From Verrucomicrobiota bacterium JB022 (GTDB lineage: Bacteria > Verrucomicrobiota > Verrucomicrobiia > Opitutales > Oceanipulchritudinaceae), in contig JAUTCQ010000015.1 in NCBI GenBank assembly GCA_030673845.1, forward strand, positions 248,001 to 312,000: a DNA stretch of 64,000 nt, written 5' to 3'. Position 1 is the stretch's first letter; each line of letters begins with the position of its first letter. The notes under the pieces were generated by a model. That model was not told where the DNA came from and made no database searches. It worked only from the letters and a program-made list of their open reading frames with translations. Shown here in pieces: positions 36,119 through 53,654 of this stretch. Made by a program: the position numbers and the translations under genes.

Positions 36119-37015
36119 GTGCGCCCCGCGCCCTGCCAGCTCCGCGAAAACGTGCCCCTTGCGCCTCTCACCACGTGGCGTATCGGGGGGCCTGCGCGCT
36201 GGCTGGCTGAGCCCAGCGCAGCCGAAGTGCCCGCCCTGCTCGAATGGGCGCGCGCGGAAAAGCTGCGCGTGTGGTGGCTCGGGCGCGGCTCAAACGTGCT
36301 GGTCGACGACGCGGGGCTCGACGGCCTCGTCGTCCTCACCCGCGAGGCTATGAAGCAGATCGGGCGCAAAGGCGACTGCATCGAGGCCGAAGCGGGCGTG
36401 AGCCTGCCACGCCTGGCCAAGTTTGCCGCGCAGGAAGGTTACGCAGGCTACGAGTTTCTGATCGGGATCCCCGGCACGGTCGGGGCGGCCGTGGCGATCA
36501 ACGCCGGCTTCAAGCAAGGCGACCCCCGCCACATGCTGGCCCTCGTCCACGAGGCCGACCTCATCGCGCTCGACGGCAGCACCCGCACCGTCACCATGCA
36601 GGAAGTCAACGCGCGCTACCGCTATACCGACATTCTGGAGACGGAAGAGCTGGTGCTGCGCGCGCGCCTGAAGCTCGAACGCCCCGGCGACCCGGAGGAA
36701 ATTCGCGCCGAGACGCGCGAGCACCTGCTGCAGCGCAAACGCACCCAACCCCTCACGCGCCCCACCGCCGGCAGCGTCTTCAAGGCGATCCACGACGGCA
36801 CGCCCGCTGCCGTCTTTATCGACCGGGCGGGCCTCAAGGGCCTGCAGGAGGGTGGGGCGATCGTCAGCCCCAAGCACGCCAACTGGATCGAAAACGCCGG
36901 AGGGGCCAGTGCGCGCGATGTGCTGCGCCTCGTCGAGCAGGTCCAGCGCCGGGTGGGCACAGAATTTGGTCTCGATCTCGAACCTGAGATCCGCTACCTC
37001 CATTCCAACGCATGA
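36119..37015 (+). CDS. murB: UDP-N-acetylenolpyruvoylglucosamine reductase MurB
   Basis: Reduces enolpyruvyl-UDP-GlcNAc to UDP-MurNAc with NADPH and FAD, in peptidoglycan synthesis. It has [41 protein letters not shown], and PTAGSVFKA. The GTG at 36119 fits, 10 bp after the uxs stop; the first ~20 residues match MurB. Its length of 298 residues is that of the shorter MurB type. It has no obvious link to the polysaccharide genes, but its stop overlaps the kdsA start as ATGA. Confidence 0.95.
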
Positions 37016-37830
37016 GCCTGTTCGACCCCCAACGCCTGCTGCTGATTGCCGGCCCTTGCTCGCTCGAGAGCTTCGACACCAGCCTTCAGGTTGCCCGCGA
37101 ACTCAAGCGCCTCGCCGCCGCCCACCAAGACCTCAACATCGTCTTCAAGGGCTCGTTCGACAAGGCCAACCGCACCTCGCTGGACAGCCCGCGCGGCCCC
37201 GGCATGAAGGAAGGGCTCGAAATCCTCCAGGCCGTGAAGGATGAGACGGGCTTCCCCGTGCTCACCGACATCCATTACCCCGACCAGGCGGCCACCGTCG
37301 GCCAAGTCTGCGACGTGCTCCAGATCCCGGCCTTCCTCTGCCGCCAGACGGATCTGCTCATCGCCGCCGCCCAGACCTCCCGCGTGGTCAACGTCAAGAA
37401 AGGCCAGTTCCTCTCGCCCGCCGAGATGCGCTTCGTCATCGACAAGCTCGAAGGCGCCGACGCGGAAGAGATCTGGCAGACCGAGCGCGGCACCACTTTC
37501 GGCTACCAGAACCTGGTCGTCGATATGCGCAATTTCGACCTCATGGGCGGCTACAACCACCCGACGATCATCGACGCCACCCACTCCGTGCAGTTGCCCG
37601 GCGCCGGCGGCGGCAAGACCACCGGCCAGCGCCAGTTTGTGCCCCTGCTGATGCGGGCGGCCCTCGCGGCGGGTGCCAACGGCGTGTTCGTCGAATCCCA
37701 CCCGGAGCCGGAGCAAGCCATTTCCGACGGGCCCAATCAGGTCCCGCTCGCCTCGCTGCCCACCTTGGTGGAGCAGGCTCTTGGCATCTGGCGCGCCGCC
37801 CGCAACCTTCCGACCCTCACCCTCAGCTGA
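37012..37830 (+). CDS. kdsA: 3-deoxy-8-phosphooctulonate synthase KdsA
   Basis: Condenses phosphoenolpyruvate with arabinose 5-phosphate to form Kdo-8-phosphate. [38 protein letters not shown], and [10 protein letters not shown] are family hallmarks. 272 residues is normal. The start overlaps the murB stop. It forms the Kdo pathway with the KdsB-KdsD fusion 0.7 kb downstream and a KdsC-like HAD domain at 48-49 kb. Confidence 0.97.
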
Positions 37831-38554: not shown

Positions 38555-40270
38555 GTGTCCGCCTCATCCGTCATCGTCATCCCGGCGCGGCTGGCCTCGA
38601 CCCGCTTGCCCCGCAAGCTGCTGCTGCCCCTCGCCGGCCAACCCGTGCTTTGGCACACCTGGCAGCGTGCCCAGCAAGTGGCGCCCGAGGTGCCTGTCAT
38701 CATCGCGACCGACAGCGAAGAAGTCGCCAACCTCGTGCGCAGTTGGGGCGGCGACGTCCGCATGACGCCCGCCAGTTGCCAATCGGGCACCGAGCGCATC
38801 TGCGCCCTGCTCGACGAACTGGAGGCCGATTTCTTCCTCAACGTGCAGGGCGACGAGCCGTTTATCGACCCCGACCTGCTGCGCAGCCTCCTCCAGCGCG
38901 CCCGCGACACCGGTTGCGACCTCGTGACCGCCGTGACGCCGATCCGCAGCCGGGCCGACCTCTTCAACCCCAGCGTGGTCAAAGCTGTGCGCGCCTCCGA
39001 CGGTCGGGCCGTCTACTTTACCCGCGCGACCGCACCTTACCTGCGCGACGTGAGCTGGGCCGACTGGATCGACCAGCGCACCCACTTCCGCCACCTCGGC
39101 GTCTACGGCTACACGCGCGCGGCCCTCCAGTGGTATGCCCAGCAGGCCCCCTGTGCGCTGGAGCAGCAGGAAAAGCTGGAGCAGCTCCGCTTTGTCGACC
39201 ACCAGTGGAATTTCCAGACCGTGGTGACGGACTACGCGGGCGTCGGCATCGACACCCCGGAAGACCTCCGCCACGCCTCGCGCCTGATGGAGCAGGGCCT
39301 GAGCCCCGAGCAACTGATGCAGCCGCCGAGCGTGCACGAGCAGGTGGCCCAGACCACGCTGCTGCACGAGATCGAAGCCCTGCAAAGCCTCCTGCCGCGC
39401 AACCGCCAGGAGATCACGCGTGCGGTCGAGCTGATCCTCACCGCCAAGGGCAAGGTCGTCGTGACCGGGCTTGGCAAATCGGGCCTCGTGGGCCACAAGA
39501 TTGCCGCGACGCTCGCCAGCACCGGCACCCCCGCCGTTTTCCTCAATGCCGCCGAGGCGCTGCATGGCGACTTGGGGCTCGTCAACCCGGGCGACGTCGT
39601 CCTGATGCTCAGCAACAGCGCCGCCACGGTCGAGCTGATCAAGATGCTGCCCAGCCTGAAGAAGATCGGGGTCGACCTCATCGGCATCTTCGGCCAGTTG
39701 CAGACCCAGCTCGCGCAGGAGATGCGCGTAGTGATCGACATCAGCGCGGTACGCGAAGCCTGCCCGCTCGGCGTCGCCCCAATGAGCACCACCACCAACA
39801 CCCTCGCGGTGGGCGATGCCCTCGCGGCGGCCCTGATGAAGGCCAAGGGCTTTACGGATGAAGACTTTGCCGTCTACCACCCAGGTGGCTCGCTGGGGCG
39901 CAAGCTGCTGCTGCATGTGCGCGACGTGATGCACCCGGCGGAGGCGCTCCCGCAACTCACCCCCGAGGCCACCCTCGACGAGGTGCTGGTGGCGATGACG
40001 CAAAAGAACCTCGGGGCGGTCTGCCTGACCGAAGAGGGCCGCCTCGCCGGTATTATTACGGAAGGGGACATCCGCCGCGCCCTCGTGCGCTACCGCGACT
40101 TGAACCTCAAGGCCAGCCAGGTGATGACGCCCCGGCCCATCGCCATCGGCCCCGACGAACGTCTCGGCACTGCGCTCGAGCGCATGGAGGCCAAGCAGAT
40201 TTACGTGTTGCCCGTCGTCGATGCCAGCCAGCGCTACCTCGGCCTGCTGCGCATGCACGACACTCTTTAG
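38555..40270 (+). CDS. kdsB-kdsD: Fusion of KdsB (CMP-Kdo synthetase) and KdsD (arabinose-5-phosphate isomerase)
   Basis: One 571-residue chain combines two Kdo steps. Residues 1-245 are KdsB (IPARLASTRLPRKLLLPL; NVQGDEPFIDPDLL; VDTPEDL-like IDTPEDL). Residues 270-400 are a sugar-isomerase SIS domain: GLGKSGLVGHKIAATLASTGTPA and LMLSNSAATVELI. Two CBS domains end it (VRDVMHP and ASQVMTPRPIAI). KdsD makes arabinose-5-phosphate from ribulose-5-phosphate, while KdsB activates Kdo with CMP; the intermediate steps need KdsA and KdsC. GTG at 38555 is the only start that keeps the KdsB N-terminus. Such a fusion is uncommon. Confidence 0.95.
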   Translation: MSASSVIVIPARLASTRLPRKLLLPLAGQPVLWHTWQRAQQVAPEVPVIIATDSEEVANLVRSWGGDVRMTPASCQSGTERICALLDELEADFFLNVQGDEPFIDPDLLRSLLQRARDTGCDLVTAVTPIRSRADLFNPSVVKAVRASDGRAVYFTRATAPYLRDVSWADWIDQRTHFRHLGVYGYTRAALQWYAQQAPCALEQQEKLEQLRFVDHQWNFQTVVTDYAGVGIDTPEDLRHASRLMEQGLSPEQLMQPPSVHEQVAQTTLLHEIEALQSLLPRNRQEITRAVELILTAKGKVVVTGLGKSGLVGHKIAATLASTGTPAVFLNAAEALHGDLGLVNPGDVVLMLSNSAATVELIKMLPSLKKIGVDLIGIFGQLQTQLAQEMRVVIDISAVREACPLGVAPMSTTTNTLAVGDALAAALMKAKGFTDEDFAVYHPGGSLGRKLLLHVRDVMHPAEALPQLTPEATLDEVLVAMTQKNLGAVCLTEEGRLAGIITEGDIRRALVRYRDLNLKASQVMTPRPIAIGPDERLGTALERMEAKQIYVLPVVDASQRYLGLLRMHDTL

Positions 40271-40300: not shown

Positions 40301-41170
40301 ATGTCCACCGCCTCTGCCGAACCGCCCTTGCCGGCGCGCGTCTACGCGCCCGATTCGCCCCTGCGGAGCCTGCGGACGTTCCTGGCTGAAGCTTGGGCCG
40401 ATCTCGCCAAATGTCGCGAGCTAGCCTGGCTGCTGACCTTGCGCGACATCAAGGCGCAGTTTCGCCAAAGTATGCTGGGATACGTGTGGGCCTTTTTGCC
40501 ACCCGTCATCACCTCGCTCACCTTCATTTTTCTCAGCGAGACGGGCACGATTCAAGTCGGGGAAACGGCGATCCCGTATCCCGCTTTCGTCCTCATCGGC
40601 TCCCTTATCTGGCAGATGTTCGCCGACGCCGTGCAAAGCCCCTTGCGGGCGGTTACGGCGGGGCAAAACATGCTGATCAAGATCAACTTCCCGCGTGAGT
40701 CGCTGATCCTGTCCGGCGTGGGCATGGCGCTCTTCAACAGCCTTGTGCGGCTCGTTATCCTCGTGCCGGTGCTGGTGTACTACCAGGTCTCGCCCTCGCT
40801 CTCGTGGCTCTGGGCGGGCGTGGGCTGCATGGGGCTGATTGCGATGGGCACCTGCATCAGCACGCTCCTGACCCCGCTCGGCGTGCTCTTCAGCGACGTG
40901 GCGCGCGGCATCATGCTCATCATGACGTTCTGGATGTTCCTCTCTGCCGCCATCTTTCCGCTGCCGACGGAGGGCCTCAAGGCCCAGTTGATGCATCTAA
41001 ACCCTATCATGCCGCTGGTGGTGACTACCCGTAGTGCGTTGCTGGGTATGGATTTACCGCTGCTGCCCTATATGTTGGTGGTCATCGCCGTCAGTGTCGC
41101 CCTCCTTTTGGTCGGTTGGCTGCTCTACCGCGTGGCGCTGCCCCACATGATCGCCCGACTGGGCATGTAG
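40301..41170 (+). CDS. wzm: ABC-2 transporter permease for polysaccharide (Wzm-like)
   Basis: A 289-residue inner-membrane permease with about six transmembrane helices and an N-terminal cytoplasmic segment. It has LAWLLTLRDIKAQFRQSMLGYVWAFLPP, the signature of the polysaccharide ABC-2 family, and later KINFPRESLI. It pairs with the ATPase encoded 18 bp downstream to export an undecaprenol-linked glycan. Confidence 0.93.
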   Translation: MSTASAEPPLPARVYAPDSPLRSLRTFLAEAWADLAKCRELAWLLTLRDIKAQFRQSMLGYVWAFLPPVITSLTFIFLSETGTIQVGETAIPYPAFVLIGSLIWQMFADAVQSPLRAVTAGQNMLIKINFPRESLILSGVGMALFNSLVRLVILVPVLVYYQVSPSLSWLWAGVGCMGLIAMGTCISTLLTPLGVLFSDVARGIMLIMTFWMFLSAAIFPLPTEGLKAQLMHLNPIMPLVVTTRSALLGMDLPLLPYMLVVIAVSVALLLVGWLLYRVALPHMIARLGM

Positions 41171-41188: not shown

Positions 41189-42367
41189 ATGGCTGGAGAA
41201 GTCCTCGTTCGCGCAGAAGACGTCGGTAAAAAGTTTTGCCGCGACCTCAAGCGATCGCTCGTCTACGGCGTGCAGGACACGTTGAGCGACCTCTGCCTGC
41301 ACGGGGGGCCACGCACCCGACTGCGGCGCGACGAGTTTTGGGCTAACCAGGGCGTCAGCTTCGAGCTGCGGCGGGGCGAATGCCTAGGGCTGATCGGCCG
41401 CAACGGTGCGGGCAAGACAACCCTGCTCAAGATGCTCAACGGGCTGCTTAAGCCCGACACTGGCCGGATCGAGCTGCGCGGGAGGGTAGGGGCGCTGATC
41501 GCGCTCAACGCCGGTTTCAACCCAATCCTGACCGGGCGCGAAAATATCTACGTCAACGGTTCGATTCTCGGCCTCTCGCGGCAGGAGATCAAAGCCCGCT
41601 TCGACGAGATTGTGGAATTTGCTGAGTTGGCCGCCTTTATTGATACGCCCGTGCGGTCTTACAGCTCCGGTATGCAGGTGCGCCTCGGTTTCGCGATCGC
41701 CAGCACGCTCCAGCCCGATGTGCTGCTGCTCGACGAGGTGTTGGCAGTGGGCGATGTGGCCTTCCGCAACAAGTGCTATACCCGTGTGGCGGGGCTGCTG
41801 AAAGAGGCGGCGGTAATCTTTGTCAGCCACAACATGGAGCAGGTGGCGCAGATCTGCACGCACGGCCTGTTCCTCAAACAAGGCCGGGTGGAGGATGCGG
41901 GCAGCCTCGATCACGTTGTGCGGCGCTACTTCAGCGACAACATCAACCAGGGCGAGTCGGAGATCTTCGAGCGGGTCAACGCCCCTCTGACGAAGGTAGA
42001 GGTGCAGCTATCGGAGCACGTGCCGTATGGCAGCCGGATGCAAGTCGATTTGACGGTGGAGGCTGCTGAAGACTTGAACGATGTCAGCGCCAATTTCTTC
42101 GTGCTGACTTCCGAGGTGCAGCGGGTATTTGGAGCCCTTGGCCGGGAGCAGGCCCTCGCTTTCGATCTGAAAAAGGGTACGAACCGCCTCCAGTTCGAGA
42201 TTGACGCGCTGTATCTGCGGCGTGGCAAGTACTACCTGACGGTCGACTTGGTCGATGCTCGCACGGCGAACCGTCACTATACGGCTTACCTGAAATACAG
42301 CTTCGAAGTCCACGGGCCCACCTTCGCCCGCGACATTCAAGTCCCATCGGTCAAGTTGAACGGATAA
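41189..42367 (+). CDS. wzt: ABC transporter ATPase with carbohydrate-binding tail (Wzt-like)
   Basis: The energy subunit of glycan export. Walker A GRNGAGKT is at 70-77, the signature SYSSGMQVRLGFA and Walker B DVLLLDEVLAVGD follow. A C-terminal region of about 145 residues (from about 245) has the beta-rich form of Wzt carbohydrate-binding domains, which recognise the capped end of the glycan. It is 392 residues long. With Wzm it shows that the polymer is made in the cytoplasm and exported, at least in part. Confidence 0.93.
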   Translation: MAGEVLVRAEDVGKKFCRDLKRSLVYGVQDTLSDLCLHGGPRTRLRRDEFWANQGVSFELRRGECLGLIGRNGAGKTTLLKMLNGLLKPDTGRIELRGRVGALIALNAGFNPILTGRENIYVNGSILGLSRQEIKARFDEIVEFAELAAFIDTPVRSYSSGMQVRLGFAIASTLQPDVLLLDEVLAVGDVAFRNKCYTRVAGLLKEAAVIFVSHNMEQVAQICTHGLFLKQGRVEDAGSLDHVVRRYFSDNINQGESEIFERVNAPLTKVEVQLSEHVPYGSRMQVDLTVEAAEDLNDVSANFFVLTSEVQRVFGALGREQALAFDLKKGTNRLQFEIDALYLRRGKYYLTVDLVDARTANRHYTAYLKYSFEVHGPTFARDIQVPSVKLNG

Positions 42368-43598: not shown

Positions 43599-43605
43599 AA
43601 GGCTC

Positions 43606-44337
43606 ATGAAAAACGCGGTCATCCTCACGGCCAAAGGCGGCAACACTACCGTCCAGAACAAGAACGTGATCCCCATCCTCGGGGTCCCCGTCATGCTCTA
43701 CCCCCTGCGCGCGGCCAAGCTCTCCGTCGAGACCGACGCGATTTTCGTCTCTACCGAAGACGAGCTGATCGGCAACCTTGCGCAAAAGGAAGGCGCGAAG
43801 ATCCTCGTACGCCCGCCCGAACTCTCCACCCCCGAGAGCCAGCACCGCGATGTAATCCAGTATGCCGTGCAACAGGTAGAGGCTTTGCACCCTGAGCTGG
43901 AGAACGTCATCGTACTGCTGGGCAATACGGTGCAGGTGACGCCGGGCGTGATCGACAAGGCCTTCCGCATGCTGGAAGAAGACGATTGCGACTCGGTGGC
44001 GACCGTCTGGAAGGCGCAGGACGACCACCCCTTCCGTGCGATGACGCAGGACGAGCAGGGCTACATGAAGGCCTTTCACGATCTTGACGTCAGCTCCAAC
44101 CGCCAGAGCTACCCGCCGGTATATTTTTACGATCAGGGTGTCTGGGCCTTCCGCAAGCACTGCGCCTACGAGCAAAAGGGCCCCAGCCCGTGGGTGTGGC
44201 TCGGGCAAAAGTGCAAGATGATCGAGCGCCCTTGGGTGACTGGCCGCGACATCCATACCTGGATCGATATTTCCGCCAGCGTCTGGTATCTGAACTCCAT
44301 CCAGGTCAACGACTTCATGGACTACAAGGATTTGTAG
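43606..44337 (+). CDS. Cytidylyltransferase, CMP-nonulosonate synthetase-like
   Basis: A 243-residue NeuA-like nucleotidyltransferase. It starts VILTAKGGNTTVQNKNVIPILGVPV, a variant of the NeuA/KdsB N-terminal motif in which the usual ARxGSKxxxxKN has become AKGGNTTVQNKN. The rest includes FVSTEDELIGNLAQKEGA and RPPELSTPESQHRDVIQYAV, as in NeuA. The variant motif may mean another acid sugar. It is separate from the NeuA fusion at 48120. The start overlaps nothing; a longer reading in the frame runs within the preceding GT gene and is rejected. Confidence 0.8.
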   Translation: MKNAVILTAKGGNTTVQNKNVIPILGVPVMLYPLRAAKLSVETDAIFVSTEDELIGNLAQKEGAKILVRPPELSTPESQHRDVIQYAVQQVEALHPELENVIVLLGNTVQVTPGVIDKAFRMLEEDDCDSVATVWKAQDDHPFRAMTQDEQGYMKAFHDLDVSSNRQSYPPVYFYDQGVWAFRKHCAYEQKGPSPWVWLGQKCKMIERPWVTGRDIHTWIDISASVWYLNSIQVNDFMDYKDL

Positions 44338-46945: not shown

Positions 46946-48123
46946 AACCTCGCGCGCTCATCCTCTACCCTCAGGTTGCTTGGCCGGCCGAGACAGGCTC
47001 CCTGCAGCGGGTCGAAGCGGTCAGAAAATGGCTTGCTCAGCAAATGAGTGTCTCATTGGTAACGCCTTCATTTGCAATCCACCCCGACAGAGTTGGTCAA
47101 CCTCCTTATGAACATGTTTTTGCGCATATAGGCTCTATACGCCAGACGAAGACTCCTGCGCTTGTCCGAAAGTTCAAAGGCAGGATGGGCTATTACTGGG
47201 CTCGCAATGCAGGGTTGAACGAGAAGTGTTCGAGGGATACTCGCATCGACGAGGTCTTTCGTTATCGTCGCGTCTTACGCCAGTTACGCCCGTCGTTAGT
47301 TTTTTGTGAATACGTATCGCAGCTCCCTAATCTGTATGTGGCTCGGGGCAAGCTGCCAATTTCGATTGTACTGGATACCCACGACATCATTTGGCGCCGC
47401 CAACAACATGAAGTGGAGCTTGGTTTGATTGCAAAGGCAGGCATTACACAGGCCGAAGAAGCCTATCTCTGGAGCCTGGCCGATCTTGTAGTGGGCATTC
47501 AGCCGGAAGAGGCTGCCGAGATCGCGTCGCTCCTGCCCGGTAAGCCCGTTATCTCGGTCCCACAGGCCTACGAGCCTCGCTTTGTCAATCCAGCGCGGAA
47601 GGAGGCGCATCGCTTATTGTTTGTGGGCTCCAAGGCAAGGCCCAACGTCAATGCGTTGGAGGCTTTTTTGCAGACGACTTGGCCTGCGTTGAAGGCGCGG
47701 CACCCGCATCTGCAACTGGATGTCTGCGGGACCGTCTGCGGCACTTTGGAAGCTGGGCTGCTCGCCTCCGAGGGCGTGGCGTTTCACGGTCGAGTGGAGG
47801 ATCTTGAGCCTTTCTATGCGCGCGCGGCCTTGGTCATCAACCCGATGCTGTATGGCAGCGGTCTCAAGATTAAGAACGTGGAGGCCCTCAGCTATGGCAA
47901 GGCCTTGCTTACCTCTCCGGTTGGCGCGCAAGGGATGGACCTGCCATCCGGCATTGCGGCAGTGGAGCCGAAGCATTTTGGCGGCAAGATTAGTGAGATT
48001 ATGTTGTCTCCGGAGACGCTGGCGCGCTGGGAAAAGGACTGCCGCAATTTCTTCCTTGCCACCTACACCCCTGAAGCCTGCTTTGCGCCACTAGCACAGT
48101 GGCTGCAGCAGCAATCTCTATGA
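46942..48123 (+). CDS. Glycosyltransferase, GT4-like
   Basis: A 393-residue GT-B enzyme of the same broad subgroup as its two neighbours: MKPRALILYPQVAWPAETGSLQRVEAVRKWL, VGSKARPNVNALEAFLQTTWPALKARHPHLQLDVCG, ALVINPMLYGSGLKIKNVEALSYGKALLTSPVGAQG. The first 700 bases are visibly more AT-rich than the rest. It overlaps both neighbours by ATGA, so it is translationally coupled. Confidence 0.88.
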   Translation: MKPRALILYPQVAWPAETGSLQRVEAVRKWLAQQMSVSLVTPSFAIHPDRVGQPPYEHVFAHIGSIRQTKTPALVRKFKGRMGYYWARNAGLNEKCSRDTRIDEVFRYRRVLRQLRPSLVFCEYVSQLPNLYVARGKLPISIVLDTHDIIWRRQQHEVELGLIAKAGITQAEEAYLWSLADLVVGIQPEEAAEIASLLPGKPVISVPQAYEPRFVNPARKEAHRLLFVGSKARPNVNALEAFLQTTWPALKARHPHLQLDVCGTVCGTLEAGLLASEGVAFHGRVEDLEPFYARAALVINPMLYGSGLKIKNVEALSYGKALLTSPVGAQGMDLPSGIAAVEPKHFGGKISEIMLSPETLARWEKDCRNFFLATYTPEACFAPLAQWLQQQSL

Positions 48124-49298
48124 ACTCTCGCACCGTCGCCGTCATTCCTGCACGGGGTGGATCCAAGGGGATCCGCCACAAGAACCTGCGCCCTGTCGCG
48201 GGGCGCCCCATCTTGCAACGCAACATCGAGGCGGCTCGCCTTTCCCAGCACATCGATGCCGTTTACGTCTCGACCGACGACCCCGACTACGCTCGCCACG
48301 CCCGCGAGTGGGGGGCCGAAGTCGTGATGCGCCCGGCCGACCTCGCCAGCGACACCGCCAGCAGCGAGTCCGCTCTCCTGCACGCGCTCGACGAGATCGA
48401 GCGCCGCGAAGGCCAGGCCCCGGAGGTGCTCGTCTTTCTCCAATGCACCTCGCCGCTCACGACGGCGGCCGATATCGACGCCTGCCTGGAGCTGCGCGCG
48501 CAGCAAAATGCCGACGTCTCCTTTAGCGCCACGCCCAGCCACAGCTTTCTGTGGAAGAGCGATGAAAACGGCAACGCAGTGGGCGTGAACCACGACCGCA
48601 GCTTCCGCCCGCGCCGGCAGGATCGCCAGCCCGAGTATCGCGAGACGGGTGCCATTTACGCCATGAGCGTAGCCGGCTTTCGCAAATACCGGCACCGTTT
48701 CTTCGGTCACGTGGCCATCTACCCCGTGCCGGGCGAGCGTGCCTGGGAGATCGACGACCCGGCCGACTTCGCCGTCTGCGAGGCGCTGGCCCACTTTGCC
48801 AAGGAAGACGCGAGCAGCCTCCCCTTCCCGAAAGACCTGAAGGCGGTGCTGTTCGACTTCGACGGCGTCTTTACCGACAACCGCGTATGGGTCAACCAGG
48901 ACGGCATCGAATCCGTCGCCTGCAACCGCTCCGACGGCCTGCGCCTGTCCAACCTCAAGGAGACCGGCCTTGCGCTGATGATCGTCTCCAAGGAGCAAAA
49001 CCCGGTCGTCACCACCCGCGCCCAAAAGCTGAAGTTGCCCGTGATGCAAGGGATCGACGACAAGCCGGCGGCCATCAATGCCTGGCTGCAGGAGCGCGGC
49101 TGGGGCTGGGAACAAGTCATTTACGTGGGCAACGACCTCAACGACGCGGACTGCCTCAAACGGGCGGGCTGCGGCGTGGCGGTGGCCGACGCCTATCCGG
49201 AGGCCAAACAGGCCGCCGATTTCATCCTTTCGCGCGCAGGCGGCCACGGTGCGATCCGTGAGCTGTGCGACCTGTTGCTGCAACACCTGAACGCCTAA
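48120..49298 (+). CDS. neuA: Bifunctional CMP-acylneuraminate synthetase and HAD phosphatase
   Basis: A 392-residue fusion. Residues 1-225 are NeuA-like: VAVIPARGGSKGIRHKNLRPVAGRPIL, then QCTSPLTTAADID, YRETGAIYAM. Residues 240-392 are a KdsC-type HAD phosphatase: FDFDGVFTDNRVWVNQDG, NRSDGLRLSNLKETG, QGIDDKPAAINAWL, VGNDLNDADC. It may remove a phosphate from a nonulosonate 9-phosphate or from Kdo-8-phosphate, and then activate the sugar. Fusions of this kind are known from nonulosonate pathways. The start overlaps the previous stop. Since no separate kdsC is in the locus, the HAD domain could serve the Kdo pathway. Confidence 0.92.
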   Translation: MNSRTVAVIPARGGSKGIRHKNLRPVAGRPILQRNIEAARLSQHIDAVYVSTDDPDYARHAREWGAEVVMRPADLASDTASSESALLHALDEIERREGQAPEVLVFLQCTSPLTTAADIDACLELRAQQNADVSFSATPSHSFLWKSDENGNAVGVNHDRSFRPRRQDRQPEYRETGAIYAMSVAGFRKYRHRFFGHVAIYPVPGERAWEIDDPADFAVCEALAHFAKEDASSLPFPKDLKAVLFDFDGVFTDNRVWVNQDGIESVACNRSDGLRLSNLKETGLALMIVSKEQNPVVTTRAQKLKLPVMQGIDDKPAAINAWLQERGWGWEQVIYVGNDLNDADCLKRAGCGVAVADAYPEAKQAADFILSRAGGHGAIRELCDLLLQHLNA

Positions 49299-49319: not shown

Positions 49320-50204
49320 ATGAGCTTACCGATTGAATACCGCACCCCCCGGGTGATCGCCGAAGTGGGCTGCAACCACAAGGGCGATATGAACATTGCG
49401 CGCGAACTCATCGCGACCGCGGCCATCTTCTGCAAGGCCGACGTCGTGAAGTTCCAAAAGCGCAACCCGCGCGAGCTGCTCACGCCTGAGCAGTATGCCG
49501 CCCCGCACCCCAATCCCATCCACGCCTATGGCAAGACGTATGGTGAGCACCGCGAATTTCTCGAGCTCGATGCCGATCAGCACCGCCAGCTCAAGGACTG
49601 GTGCGAGGAATTCGGCCTCGTTTACAGCACCTCGGTCTGGGACACCACTTCGGCCCGCGAGATCGTGCCGCTGAACCCCCAGCTGATCAAGATCCCCTCT
49701 GCCTGCAACATGCACTGGGAGATGCTCGGCTACCTCTGCGAGCATTACGAAGGCGAAGTCCACCTCTCCTTTGGCATGACGACGCATGAGGAAGAAGAGA
49801 AGGTCGTCCGCTTCTTCGAAGAGCGTGGCCGTGCCAAGAGCCTCGTGCTCTACGCCTGCACCTCCGGCTATCCCGTGCCGTTCGAAGACATCTGCCTGCT
49901 GGAAATCACCCGCCTGCGCCAGACTTTCGCCGAGCGCGTGAAGAGCATCGGCTTCTCCGGTCACCACCTCGGCATTTCCGTGGACATCGCTGGGTACACC
50001 CTGGGCGCCGAATGGATCGAGCGCCACTACACGCTCGACCGCACCTGGAAGGGTACCGACCACGCGGCCTCGCTTGAGCCCGACGGTATTCGCCGCCTCT
50101 GCCGCGACCTCCGCGCCACCCACCAGGCCCTTACCTACAAGAAGCAGGAAGTGCTGCCGATCGAAGAAGTGCAGCGCAAGAAGTTGAAGTGGCAGCCCCG
50201 CTAA
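49320..50204 (+). CDS. neuB: Nonulosonic acid synthase, NeuB-like, without SAF domain
   Basis: A TIM-barrel condensing enzyme that joins phosphoenolpyruvate to a six-carbon sugar to form sialic or related acids. It has RVIAEVGCNHKGDMNIA, VKFQKRNPRELL, IKIPSACN, SFGMTTHEEEEK, GFSGHHLGISVDI, ERHYTLDRTWKGTDHAASLEPD. NeuB proteins normally end in a SAF (antifreeze-like) domain and have about 340-350 residues; this one has 294 and ends after the barrel. The following gene starts two bases after its stop, so the truncation is not a break. Substrate is unclear. Confidence 0.9.
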   Translation: MSLPIEYRTPRVIAEVGCNHKGDMNIARELIATAAIFCKADVVKFQKRNPRELLTPEQYAAPHPNPIHAYGKTYGEHREFLELDADQHRQLKDWCEEFGLVYSTSVWDTTSAREIVPLNPQLIKIPSACNMHWEMLGYLCEHYEGEVHLSFGMTTHEEEEKVVRFFEERGRAKSLVLYACTSGYPVPFEDICLLEITRLRQTFAERVKSIGFSGHHLGISVDIAGYTLGAEWIERHYTLDRTWKGTDHAASLEPDGIRRLCRDLRATHQALTYKKQEVLPIEEVQRKKLKWQPR

Positions 50205-50205
50205 G

Positions 50206-51369
50206 ATGGCTCAGCACAAGCTCAAGATCCTGTGGATCACCGGCACGTGGCATCTCATCCTGGCACGTGCCGTGTTGGCCCAGCAGGGGCAGACGGTGAC
50301 GCCGGAAGAGTGGGTCGTCGCGGTTAGCGGCGGCCGATCTTCTCCGGAGTTCCGGCAGCGCCTGGCGGAGCTGTGCCGCCTGGGGTTTCCGGGCGTCGAA
50401 GTCATCGACGTCCCTTATACTGCCGCCTGGGATCACGAGCTGTTGCAGTTCTTCCTCGCGTTGATGCGACGTCGCGGCGCGAGCGGATACAGTGATTTTT
50501 GGACCTGTTTCCCGACAGAGCCTCCCGTCCGGTGCGTCAATCTGATCAGCCCGGGTTGCCGGTGCTGGGGGATCGAAGATGGGCTGGTGACGTATGCCCC
50601 GACCTTCTCCACCTTGCCCCGCACGGCGGGACGCAGCAGGGTGGGCCAGCTTGCGGCGATCACAGGGCCCGCCCTCACACATTCCGCGCTTACGCCATTG
50701 TTTGGGGTGAATCAAAAGCTGTACCGCAAAGTCCTGCGGCGGCTTCAATTCAAGAATTCCCTGCCGCTCACCCGCTATTACGGCCTCCTCAACGACTTGC
50801 TGCCTGACTTTGCGCGCGGGCATCCGCAAGAGCTTATTCGCCCGGAGATCCTGCAGGCAGAGGTGGAAGCCTTCCGCCAGCTCATTGGCTACCAGCCCCC
50901 GGAATTCGATCAGCCCACCTTGCTCTTCCTGGGCGACAACCTGCATGCGATCATGGGCGATCAGGCTGCAGCGGTAGAAGACCTCACGATCCAGTGGCTT
51001 CGCCATGTGATCGACCTCGGCTACCAGGTTTACTGGAAACCACACCCTCGGGCCGCTGCCTCGCTGACGGAAAAGCTGATCAGCCGGTTTGACGATCAGG
51101 AATTGCGGCGCGCGCCCGATCTGGACATGGCACCGGCCGAAGTGGCTTTCGCGGTGCCGAGCCTGGCCGGCGTCATCTCGATGCTCTCTTCGGCCTGCTT
51201 TTACTTCCCGCGTTATTTCGATATCCCCAGCTATCGTTTTCCCTTCCCTTGGGAGGCGATCGACCTGCCGCTGGAGCTCAAGGAAGTCCTTGCGCTCAGT
51301 GAGGCGGAGGTGATGCCGATTGACCGTTTACCTCCCGCTACACTTGTCCCTCAATCGACCGAGACCTAA
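50206..51369 (+). CDS. Sialyltransferase-like GT-B enzyme, copy 1
   Basis: A 387-residue protein with features of bacterial sialyl- and polysialyltransferases (GT38/GT52-like): the D/E-D/E-G motif at 124-126 in GIEDGLVTY, the HP motif in KPHPR (His280), and the later SS motif in ISMLSSACFYFP. No signal peptide or membrane helix. It is paralogous in its C-terminal half to the gene at 52530. It directly follows the nonulosonic acid synthase gene, so transfer of a CMP-nonulosonic acid or Kdo is a reasonable inference. It could also be a transferase for another nucleotide sugar. Confidence 0.72.
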   Translation: MAQHKLKILWITGTWHLILARAVLAQQGQTVTPEEWVVAVSGGRSSPEFRQRLAELCRLGFPGVEVIDVPYTAAWDHELLQFFLALMRRRGASGYSDFWTCFPTEPPVRCVNLISPGCRCWGIEDGLVTYAPTFSTLPRTAGRSRVGQLAAITGPALTHSALTPLFGVNQKLYRKVLRRLQFKNSLPLTRYYGLLNDLLPDFARGHPQELIRPEILQAEVEAFRQLIGYQPPEFDQPTLLFLGDNLHAIMGDQAAAVEDLTIQWLRHVIDLGYQVYWKPHPRAAASLTEKLISRFDDQELRRAPDLDMAPAEVAFAVPSLAGVISMLSSACFYFPRYFDIPSYRFPFPWEAIDLPLELKEVLALSEAEVMPIDRLPPATLVPQSTET

Positions 51370-51384
51370 AGGCCCCCTTCCTCT

Positions 51385-52506
51385 ATGGCACATATCCTGA
51401 TGCTCAGCACGATGGACGGCACCCCTTGGGGGGGCAGCGAATTGCTGTGGGCCGATGCGGCCAGCCATCTCGTCCGGCAAGGCCACCAAGTCTCTGCCTG
51501 CACGATGCTGCACCCGGGGGTAACGGTGCCGGCCCTCCAGAAGCTGCAAGGCGAGGGCGTACAGCTGCACCACTGGCGCCGCCTGCCGAAAGTCTTCCGG
51601 CTGGTGCGCTCGCCGGAGAGGCTGACTACGCCCAATCCCCAGCATTTTCTGGCCAAGCTCCGGCCAGACCTGTTGCTGATCAACAACGGCTACCAAGTGC
51701 CGCCTGCCGTTTGGACGGAGGCCGCCTACGAGTTGGGCATCCCATACGCGCATCTCTGCCACTCGTTCATCGAGTCGATCTGGCCCGATGAAGCTGTCAT
51801 CTCGCGAGGAGCCAAGGCCTTGGAGCGCGCGGCCGCCGCCTTTTGGGTTAGCGAAAGCAACCAGCGCGGTGCCTACCGGCAGTTTGTCGCAGTTGCGCCC
51901 GTCAGCGAAGTCGTCCGCAACCCCTACCAGGTGTCGCGAGACATTCCCTTTAGCTGGCCTGGGAATGAGGGCCTGCAGCTGGCCTTCGTTGGCCGGCTCG
52001 CAAACGCCCACAAGGGTTGCGACTTGCTGCTCGAAGTGCTGCAGCAGCAAAAGTGGCAAGGGCGAAACCTGCACGTCAGCTTTTTCGGCACCGGGCCTTC
52101 GGAAGCGCGCCTCAAGCTGCTGGCCGAGCGCTGGGGGCTGAACAACGTATCTTTCCGCGGGCACGTCAGCGATGTCGATGGCATCTGGAGAGAGCACCAC
52201 GCGCTGGTGCTCCCTAGCCGTCAGGAAGGCCTGCCTATCGTGATCGTCGAAGCCATGATGCGCGGGCGCCCCTGCATTGTCACGGAAGTGGCTGGCAACG
52301 CCGAGCTGCTCGTGCGGGGTGAGACGGGCTTTGTCGCCGACGGACCCAACGTGCGTGCGCTCGACCGCGCGCTGGAGGAAGCCTGGGCCGCCCGGGAGCA
52401 GTTGCGTGAAATCGGCGAACGCGCCTACCAGCAAATCCGTGCTGCCGTGCCGGCCGAGCCGGGTGCCGTCTTCGCCCAGCGCCTCCTGCAGCTGATTGGC
52501 CAATAG
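51385..52506 (+). CDS. Glycosyltransferase, GT4
   Basis: A 373-residue group 1 GT: HILMLSTMDGTPWGGSELLWADAA at the N-terminus and FVGRLANAHKGCDLLLEVLQQQ, FFGTGPSEARLKLLA, VLPSRQEGLPIVIVEAMMRGRPCIVTEVAGNAELL in the donor-binding domain. It is in the operon 15 bp after the sialyltransferase-like gene. Confidence 0.93.
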   Translation: MAHILMLSTMDGTPWGGSELLWADAASHLVRQGHQVSACTMLHPGVTVPALQKLQGEGVQLHHWRRLPKVFRLVRSPERLTTPNPQHFLAKLRPDLLLINNGYQVPPAVWTEAAYELGIPYAHLCHSFIESIWPDEAVISRGAKALERAAAAFWVSESNQRGAYRQFVAVAPVSEVVRNPYQVSRDIPFSWPGNEGLQLAFVGRLANAHKGCDLLLEVLQQQKWQGRNLHVSFFGTGPSEARLKLLAERWGLNNVSFRGHVSDVDGIWREHHALVLPSRQEGLPIVIVEAMMRGRPCIVTEVAGNAELLVRGETGFVADGPNVRALDRALEEAWAAREQLREIGERAYQQIRAAVPAEPGAVFAQRLLQLIGQ

Positions 52507-52529
52507 AGGCCTCTCCTGGCTCCCTTCCC

Positions 52530-53654
52530 ATGTCTTCCTGCCGCATCATCGCATTCAATGGACCTTGGCAATTTATCGTGGCCCGGGCTGCCATCCGTGC
52601 GCATCATGGAGCCACCGAAGAGGGCAGTTGGAAGTTGGTCCTGACCGGGGCTGCCGCCAACACGCGGCTTCACCAGCTTCTCTTGCGCCTCGCGGCTCAC
52701 TACTTCCCCCAGGCGGAGGTATTTGATCTCACGGGGCTGCCACCTGCTCGCATGATGGAGACGATGGCAGGCGCACTCGCCGGCCGGCGACTGCCCGTGG
52801 AAGAGGTCTGGTGCGGTTCTCCCAAGACGCATCTGGCTTCCACGCTTTATCTGCTCTTCCCGCGTGCTTCCTTTCATATGTTTGAGGAGGGGCTGCACAG
52901 CTACACCGCGTCCTTTTCCTTGAGTTCAGGCCCGGCCATGCCGCAGAAGCTCGGGCGCTGGCTAGGCCCAGGCCTGGGGCGTGGGCGCCACGCCGGGCCA
53001 AACCGCCTCTGCCCGCCGCTCTACGACAAGGCGGTGCAGATGTTGCAGAACCGTGCGTTGCCCCCTGCGGCTGCCTTTCACGGCATTCTCTCCGATCAGC
53101 TTCCCGTCCAAGCCGATTCAGGGGTGCCGCGGCATGTGATACCAGAGGCGGGGGTGCGAGAAGAAATCGCCTTGTATTGCAGCTTTGTCGGCAGCGAACT
53201 CCCTCGTTATGAAGAGCCTTGCATCCTGTTCCTGGGAGAAAACCTGCTTTGGACGCTTCGGCATGATTACGAACGGCTTCTGGATGCTACCGTGGCCGCC
53301 TTTCAAGCCGCCACAGAGGCAGGCTATCGTGTCCTCTGGAAGCCTCACCCGCGCATGCCCCGCTTTTGCAGCGAATACCTGGTGCTAAAAAGCGCTTCCC
53401 CTCGCGTCACCTGGCTGCCAGAAATGGACCTCTTGCCTGCCGAAGTGGCTTTTGGCCAAAGCGGCCTCCGGGCAGTCGCTTCGCTGATGTCGAGCTGCCT
53501 GTTCTACTTTCCCCGCTTTTTTGGGATCCCAAGCTATCACCTGCCTTACCCGGAAAGCCTGCCCGCTCTAGGCGGCGGGTTGGATGAGGTGCTCCAGCTT
53601 TGCCAACGCCACAGTGAGCCGCTCGCGCAGTGGCAACCTACTGAATCCGAATGA
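52530..53654 (+). CDS. Sialyltransferase-like GT-B enzyme, copy 2
   Basis: A 374-residue protein, a remote paralogue of 50206-51369. The D/E-D/E-G motif is EEG at 119-121, the HP motif is in KPHPR (His273), and the SS motif in LMSSCLFYFP, spaced like those of the first copy; the PAEVAF segment and FFGIPSYHLPYP are shared. It begins 23 bp after the GT4 gene and its stop overlaps the next start as ATGA. It may transfer a second CMP-activated sugar or the same one to another acceptor. Confidence 0.72.
   Translation: MSSCRIIAFNGPWQFIVARAAIRAHHGATEEGSWKLVLTGAAANTRLHQLLLRLAAHYFPQAEVFDLTGLPPARMMETMAGALAGRRLPVEEVWCGSPKTHLASTLYLLFPRASFHMFEEGLHSYTASFSLSSGPAMPQKLGRWLGPGLGRGRHAGPNRLCPPLYDKAVQMLQNRALPPAAAFHGILSDQLPVQADSGVPRHVIPEAGVREEIALYCSFVGSELPRYEEPCILFLGENLLWTLRHDYERLLDATVAAFQAATEAGYRVLWKPHPRMPRFCSEYLVLKSASPRVTWLPEMDLLPAEVAFGQSGLRAVASLMSSCLFYFPRFFGIPSYHLPYPESLPALGGGLDEVLQLCQRHSEPLAQWQPTESE

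Follow-up and report, generated by a model that had tools for sequence, protein, structure and literature searches.

Two divergent members of the polysialyltransferase family PF07388, probable CMP-nonulosonate transferases, in a glycan locus of a verrucomicrobial bacterium

The window, a stretch of 64,000 nucleotides from Verrucomicrobiota bacterium JB022 (genome 4.35 Mb, 97% complete), contains two open reading frames, here called P1 and P2, that lie among glycan genes transcribed in the same direction (Table 1). Both are present where the preliminary description had placed them, on the plus strand, and so are the neighbours that it reported: a NeuB-family gene (PF03102) 5' of P1, separated from it by one base, and a GT4 glycosyltransferase gene (PF00534) between the pair. 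At least seven glycosyltransferases besides P1 and P2 are encoded in the locus.

Table 1. Features of the P1/P2 locus, in positions of the window.
Feature	Position	Strand	Length	Basis or remark
KdsA	37012-37830			upstream of locus
KdsB-KpsF fusion	38555-40270			upstream of locus
ABC-2-type polysaccharide export permease and ATPase	40301-41170, 41189-42367	+		named from sequence only
Second CMP-sugar synthetase-like protein, PseF-like	43603-44337	+		TIGR03584 80.4 bits; PF02348 51.7 bits
CMP-nonulosonate synthetase/HAD phosphatase (KdsC/KDN-9-P-type) fusion	48120-49298	+		CTP_transf_3 92 bits
NeuB-family nonulosonate synthase	49320-50204	+	294 aa	PF03102 226 bits
P1	50206-51369	+	387 aa	PF07388 52.5 bits; predicted CMP-nonulosonate transferase (GT38-like)
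GT4 glycosyltransferase between P1 and P2	51385-52506	+		PF00534 103.5 bits; PF13692 100.3 bits
P2	52530-53654	+	374 aa	PF07388 60.0 bits; P1 paralogue
GT2, GT4 and polymerase-like membrane protein 3' of P2	53651-57213	+		membrane protein named from sequence only

The synthetase-HAD fusion is taken to start at an ATG, residue 8 of the open reading frame 48099-49298. The export pair is syntenic in the sister species, at 71% and 57% identity, as are the three genes 3' of P2, among which the polymerase-like membrane protein gave no match in an NCBIfam search. The KdsB-KpsF fusion, 84% identical to its sister-species copy, joins a CMP-Kdo synthetase to a KpsF/KdsD arabinose-5-phosphate isomerase, so that a single polypeptide covers two Kdo-pathway steps. 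The PseF-like protein lies below the TIGR03584 cut-off of 205.7 bits and carries a variant first motif, AKGGNTTVQNKN; it is still 90% identical in the sister species.

By their whole-protein matches, P1 and P2 are members of an already known family. Pfam assigns both to PF07388, the alpha-2,8-polysialyltransferases (E 7e-14 for P1 and 3.6e-16 for P2), well above the curated cut-off of 23.3 bits, and their sister-species orthologues also exceed it (57.7 and 44.6 bits). The initial impression that the two were unannotated-looking was therefore wrong, and these scores rule out the proposal of a new family, PF07388 being established and found in other families of the phylum too. NCBIfam gives neither protein a name, so an automatic pipeline might still label them 'hypothetical protein'. 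At E values up to 1, PF07388 was the sole Pfam family for both; neither PF07922 (GT52) nor the GT80 model gave a match. While the short motifs that had drawn attention to the pair could by themselves be due to chance, the family matches over the whole protein and the conservation of those motifs argue that they are not.

Within the phylum PF07388 is sparse, occurring in 9 of 289 sampled genomes. All close relatives of P1 and P2 that the searches found belong to the two species of the genus, and two genomes from a different family gave distant matches; a scan of genome contigs returned only the sister species (Puniceicoccaceae bacterium 5H, WOUP01000026), and a scan of viral contigs returned no relative. 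Among plasmids, P1 had two weak matches, including a Sinorhizobium 'polysialyltransferase family glycosyltransferase' at 22.8% identity, and P2 had none. Sequence searches of the PDB with single-sequence and four-sequence queries found no relative, nor did a search that used one distant PF07388 member as a bridge; a nine-sequence profile recovered, among PDB sequences, only the entries for the Mannheimia haemolytica polysialyltransferase MhPST (SiaD), at E 0.007. Searching the literature for the Pfam accession and for nonulosonates of Verrucomicrobia brought up nothing directly about enzymes of this type. One relative in the phylum (L008:1399-2391, minus strand) matches both PF07922 (49.5 bits) and PF07388 (37.8 bits) and so bridges the two sialyltransferase families.

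Structural models of P1 and P2, built with AlphaFold2 on a four-sequence alignment (pTM 0.76 and 0.73; poorly predicted segments 131-169 in P1 and 123-160 in P2), both have a GT-B fold. The fold had been named beforehand as one of two points on which the assignment to sialyl- or polysialyltransferase-like enzymes could fail, and that assignment stands, given also the PF07388 membership and the fact that MhPST (GT38; 5wc6 and 5wcn; Foldseek E 2e-9 for P1 and 2.5e-10 for P2) ranks first among the PDB matches of each model. VIA-align superposed P1 on 5wc6 with a Z score of 20.0 (324 residues, 4.9 A) and P2 with 19.9 (321 residues, 5.2 A), while the next-best scores were 14.2 and 14.7, so that MhPST lies 5-6 Z units above unrelated GT-B enzymes. 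MhPST shares with our pair the GT-B fold and a PF07388-type signature, but only 11-14% sequence identity, and its acceptor side corresponds in P1 and P2 to the low-confidence loop, where the comparison does not extend. The Neisseria enzyme NST (GT52; 2yk5-2yk7) has a GT-B fold like that of P1 and takes Foldseek ranks 3-5 for it, yet belongs to PF07922. Pasteurella multocida PmST1 (GT80; 2ex0, 8sv2) likewise has a GT-B fold, with an analogous base and histidine (PMC5517516), but GT80 structures aligned to the P1 model with Z scores of 14.0 or lower, level with unrelated GT-B enzymes.

The active-site residues of MhPST have been given roles by its crystal structure and by mutants: E153 is the base, together with E152, K289 contacts cytosine, E323 contacts ribose, and H291, S339 and T340 bind phosphate (PMC5517516). 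The nine-sequence profile aligned these positions directly, pairing E152/E153, K289, H291, P292, A322, E323, S339 and T340 of MhPST with E124/D125, K278, H280, P281, A311, E312, S328 and S329 of P1; the counterparts in P2 are E119, E120, G121, K271, H273, P274, A304, E305, S321 and S322. The catalytic, cytosine, ribose and phosphate residues are thus identical or similar in both proteins, and the spacing within the C-terminal domain is the same in all three (32 residues from the histidine to the glutamate and 16 from there to the serine). The [D/E][D/E]G, HP and SS motifs noted at the outset do occur in that order, as E124-D125-G126, H280-P281 and S328-S329 in P1 and as E119-E120-G121, H273-P274 and S321-S322 in P2, and the numbering given for the two histidines, His280 and His273, is correct. 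Motif residues are also conserved among homologues, the other point on which the assignment could have failed: in an alignment of nine divergent members from the phylum the only invariant columns, in P1 numbering, are G126, L195, L242, K278, H280, P281, R282, P310 and E312. Given that every known active-site position is kept, P1 and P2 are probably working sialic-acid-type transferases, to judge from their sequences, and we consider it very probable that they belong functionally to the CMP-nonulosonate transferases of the polysialyltransferase family.

If so, both would be inverting GT-B glycosyltransferases acting by direct displacement, as proposed for MhPST. The C-terminal domain would bind the CMP-nonulosonate, with cytosine read by the lysine of the K-x-H-P motif and by the backbone of the alanine in PAE, ribose held by the PAE glutamate, and phosphate held by the histidine and the SS pair. 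In [D/E][D/E]G the second acidic position (D125 in P1, E120 in P2) would supply the base that deprotonates the acceptor hydroxyl, and the histidine would stabilise the leaving CMP.

The two genes directly upstream of P1 are predicted to make the donor. The genome has no PF03102 gene other than the NeuB gene adjoining P1, and of the ten genomes examined that carry the family (the nine of the 289-genome sample and one further genome), six have NeuB within 5 kb of PF07388; in two of the remaining four, the PF07388 gene is near a contig end. This recurrence makes a CMP-nonulosonate the most likely donor. In one of the six (G203, L024:12051-14065) the NeuB (72% identity) and a synthetase-HAD fusion (48%) lie about 3 kb from a different PF07388-type gene.

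Which nonulosonate is donated is less clear-cut. The NeuB has no SAF domain in Pfam searches, and the better of its two model scores is the one for NeuAc synthase (181.7 bits, against 126.7 bits for PseI), both below cut-off. Residues 245-396 of the fusion match PRK09484, TIGR01670 and NF058599; this HAD domain scores 103.8 bits as KdsC and 82 bits with the KDN-9-P phosphatase model NF058599 (cut-off 180), passing neither cut-off. PDB matches of the fusion comprise CMP-NeuAc synthetases, KdsC, 3ewi (the C-domain of an N-acylneuraminate cytidylyltransferase) and 3e81. Its domain order is that of vertebrate CMAS, and the HAD nucleophile motif, DFDGVFTD, is intact. Since no other KdsC-like domain in the genome scores well, it may also serve Kdo synthesis as the Kdo-8-P phosphatase. 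Profile searches of the genome found no NeuC above cut-off (the best score was 80.9 bits against 235.9, both PF02350 genes being above cut-off as non-hydrolysing WecB), and no NanE or PseB above cut-off either; as the genome is 97% complete, there remains a small chance that it does encode a NeuC. Taken together, the lack of NeuC, NanE and PseB above cut-off, the SAF-less NeuB and the fusion of the synthetase to a KdsC/KDN-9-P-type phosphatase make Kdn our best guess, at roughly even chances. The same features weigh against Neu5Ac or another N-acylated acid, a less likely identity that we nonetheless take seriously in view of the NeuAc-leaning score of the NeuB and, more speculatively, of a WecB epimerase that could in principle release some ManNAc.

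Kdn pathways that run through phosphorylated intermediates are known from Bacteroides thetaiotaomicron and Prymnesium parvum (PMC6200933). As here, they comprise a synthase, a HAD phosphatase and a CMP-sugar synthetase and proceed through the 9-phosphate; they differ in that our phosphatase and synthetase are fused, polysialyltransferase-family genes are linked to them, and Kdn is the putative product. By analogy, the simplest reading would have Kdn made from mannose-6-P by way of phosphorylated intermediates. The nonulosonate made by NeuB, probably Kdn-9-P formed from mannose-6-P, would be dephosphorylated by the HAD domain, and the fused synthetase would then make the CMP sugar.

The preliminary description had left the donor as either a nonulosonic acid or Kdo. 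A donor of this sort is supported, and the nonulosonate is favoured because NeuB directly adjoins P1. The alternative in which P1, P2 or both use CMP-Kdo instead and place Kdo on the polysaccharide, or on its lipid anchor, is worth weighing, since KdsA and KdsB genes 10-13 kb upstream make CMP-Kdo available too. ABC exporters occur with Kdo-linked capsules, and the locus encodes such an exporter. The HP motif, moreover, is common to beta-Kdo transferases (PMC5517516). The 50 matches listed in the fold searches include no beta-Kdo transferase, which weighs neither way. Against this alternative, PF07388 is a polysialyltransferase family, and a polysialyltransferase is also the top structural match. 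Kdo genes are to be expected in any LPS-making cell, and it is NeuB, not KdsA, that adjoins P1 and again neighbours PF07388 genes in further families of the phylum. We therefore regard Kdo transfer as improbable and a CMP-nonulosonate as the preferred donor.

P1 and P2 are only 29% identical to each other. Their orthologues in the sister species, where the locus is syntenic, are 58-60% (P1) and 50-52% (P2) identical, and the NeuB (88%) and the synthetase-HAD fusion (84%) are more conserved than either. A recent duplication is ruled out, as the paralogues (29%) are further apart than the orthologues between species (50-58%), and the pair must predate the species split. Two anciently diverged paralogues in a syntenic locus with many glycosyltransferases and a polymerase-like protein suggest two distinct additions to a heteropolysaccharide, to what would be different acceptors; P1 and P2 would add the residue at two different points during its assembly. 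MhPST, by comparison, makes polysialic acid from CMP-Neu5Ac. Since characterised family members polymerise alpha-2,8 sialic acid (PMC5517516), and two divergent copies accompany an ABC exporter, one of the pair might be a processive poly-nonulosonate homopolymerase primed by the other, but processivity is not readable from sequence, and the many other glycosyltransferases and the polymerase-like membrane protein point to a heteropolysaccharide, which makes this unlikely.

The fullest form of the preferred reading is that P1 and P2 are a pair dedicated to Kdn transfer, each with its own acceptor, and form a verrucomicrobial branch of the polysialyltransferases that is specific to Kdn and supplied by a fused CMP-Kdn synthetase/Kdn-9-phosphatase; we advance this tentatively, as somewhat less probable than Kdn as the donated sugar. 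The finding is an ordinary one, but well supported, and P1 and P2 leave the known mechanism unchanged. Its modest interest rests on the likely Kdn chemistry in the phylum: it extends sialic-acid-type surface chemistry, and polysialyltransferase-family enzymes with it, to an environmental phylum that has been little studied, and it provides two divergent enzymes that can be tested with Kdn or related donors.
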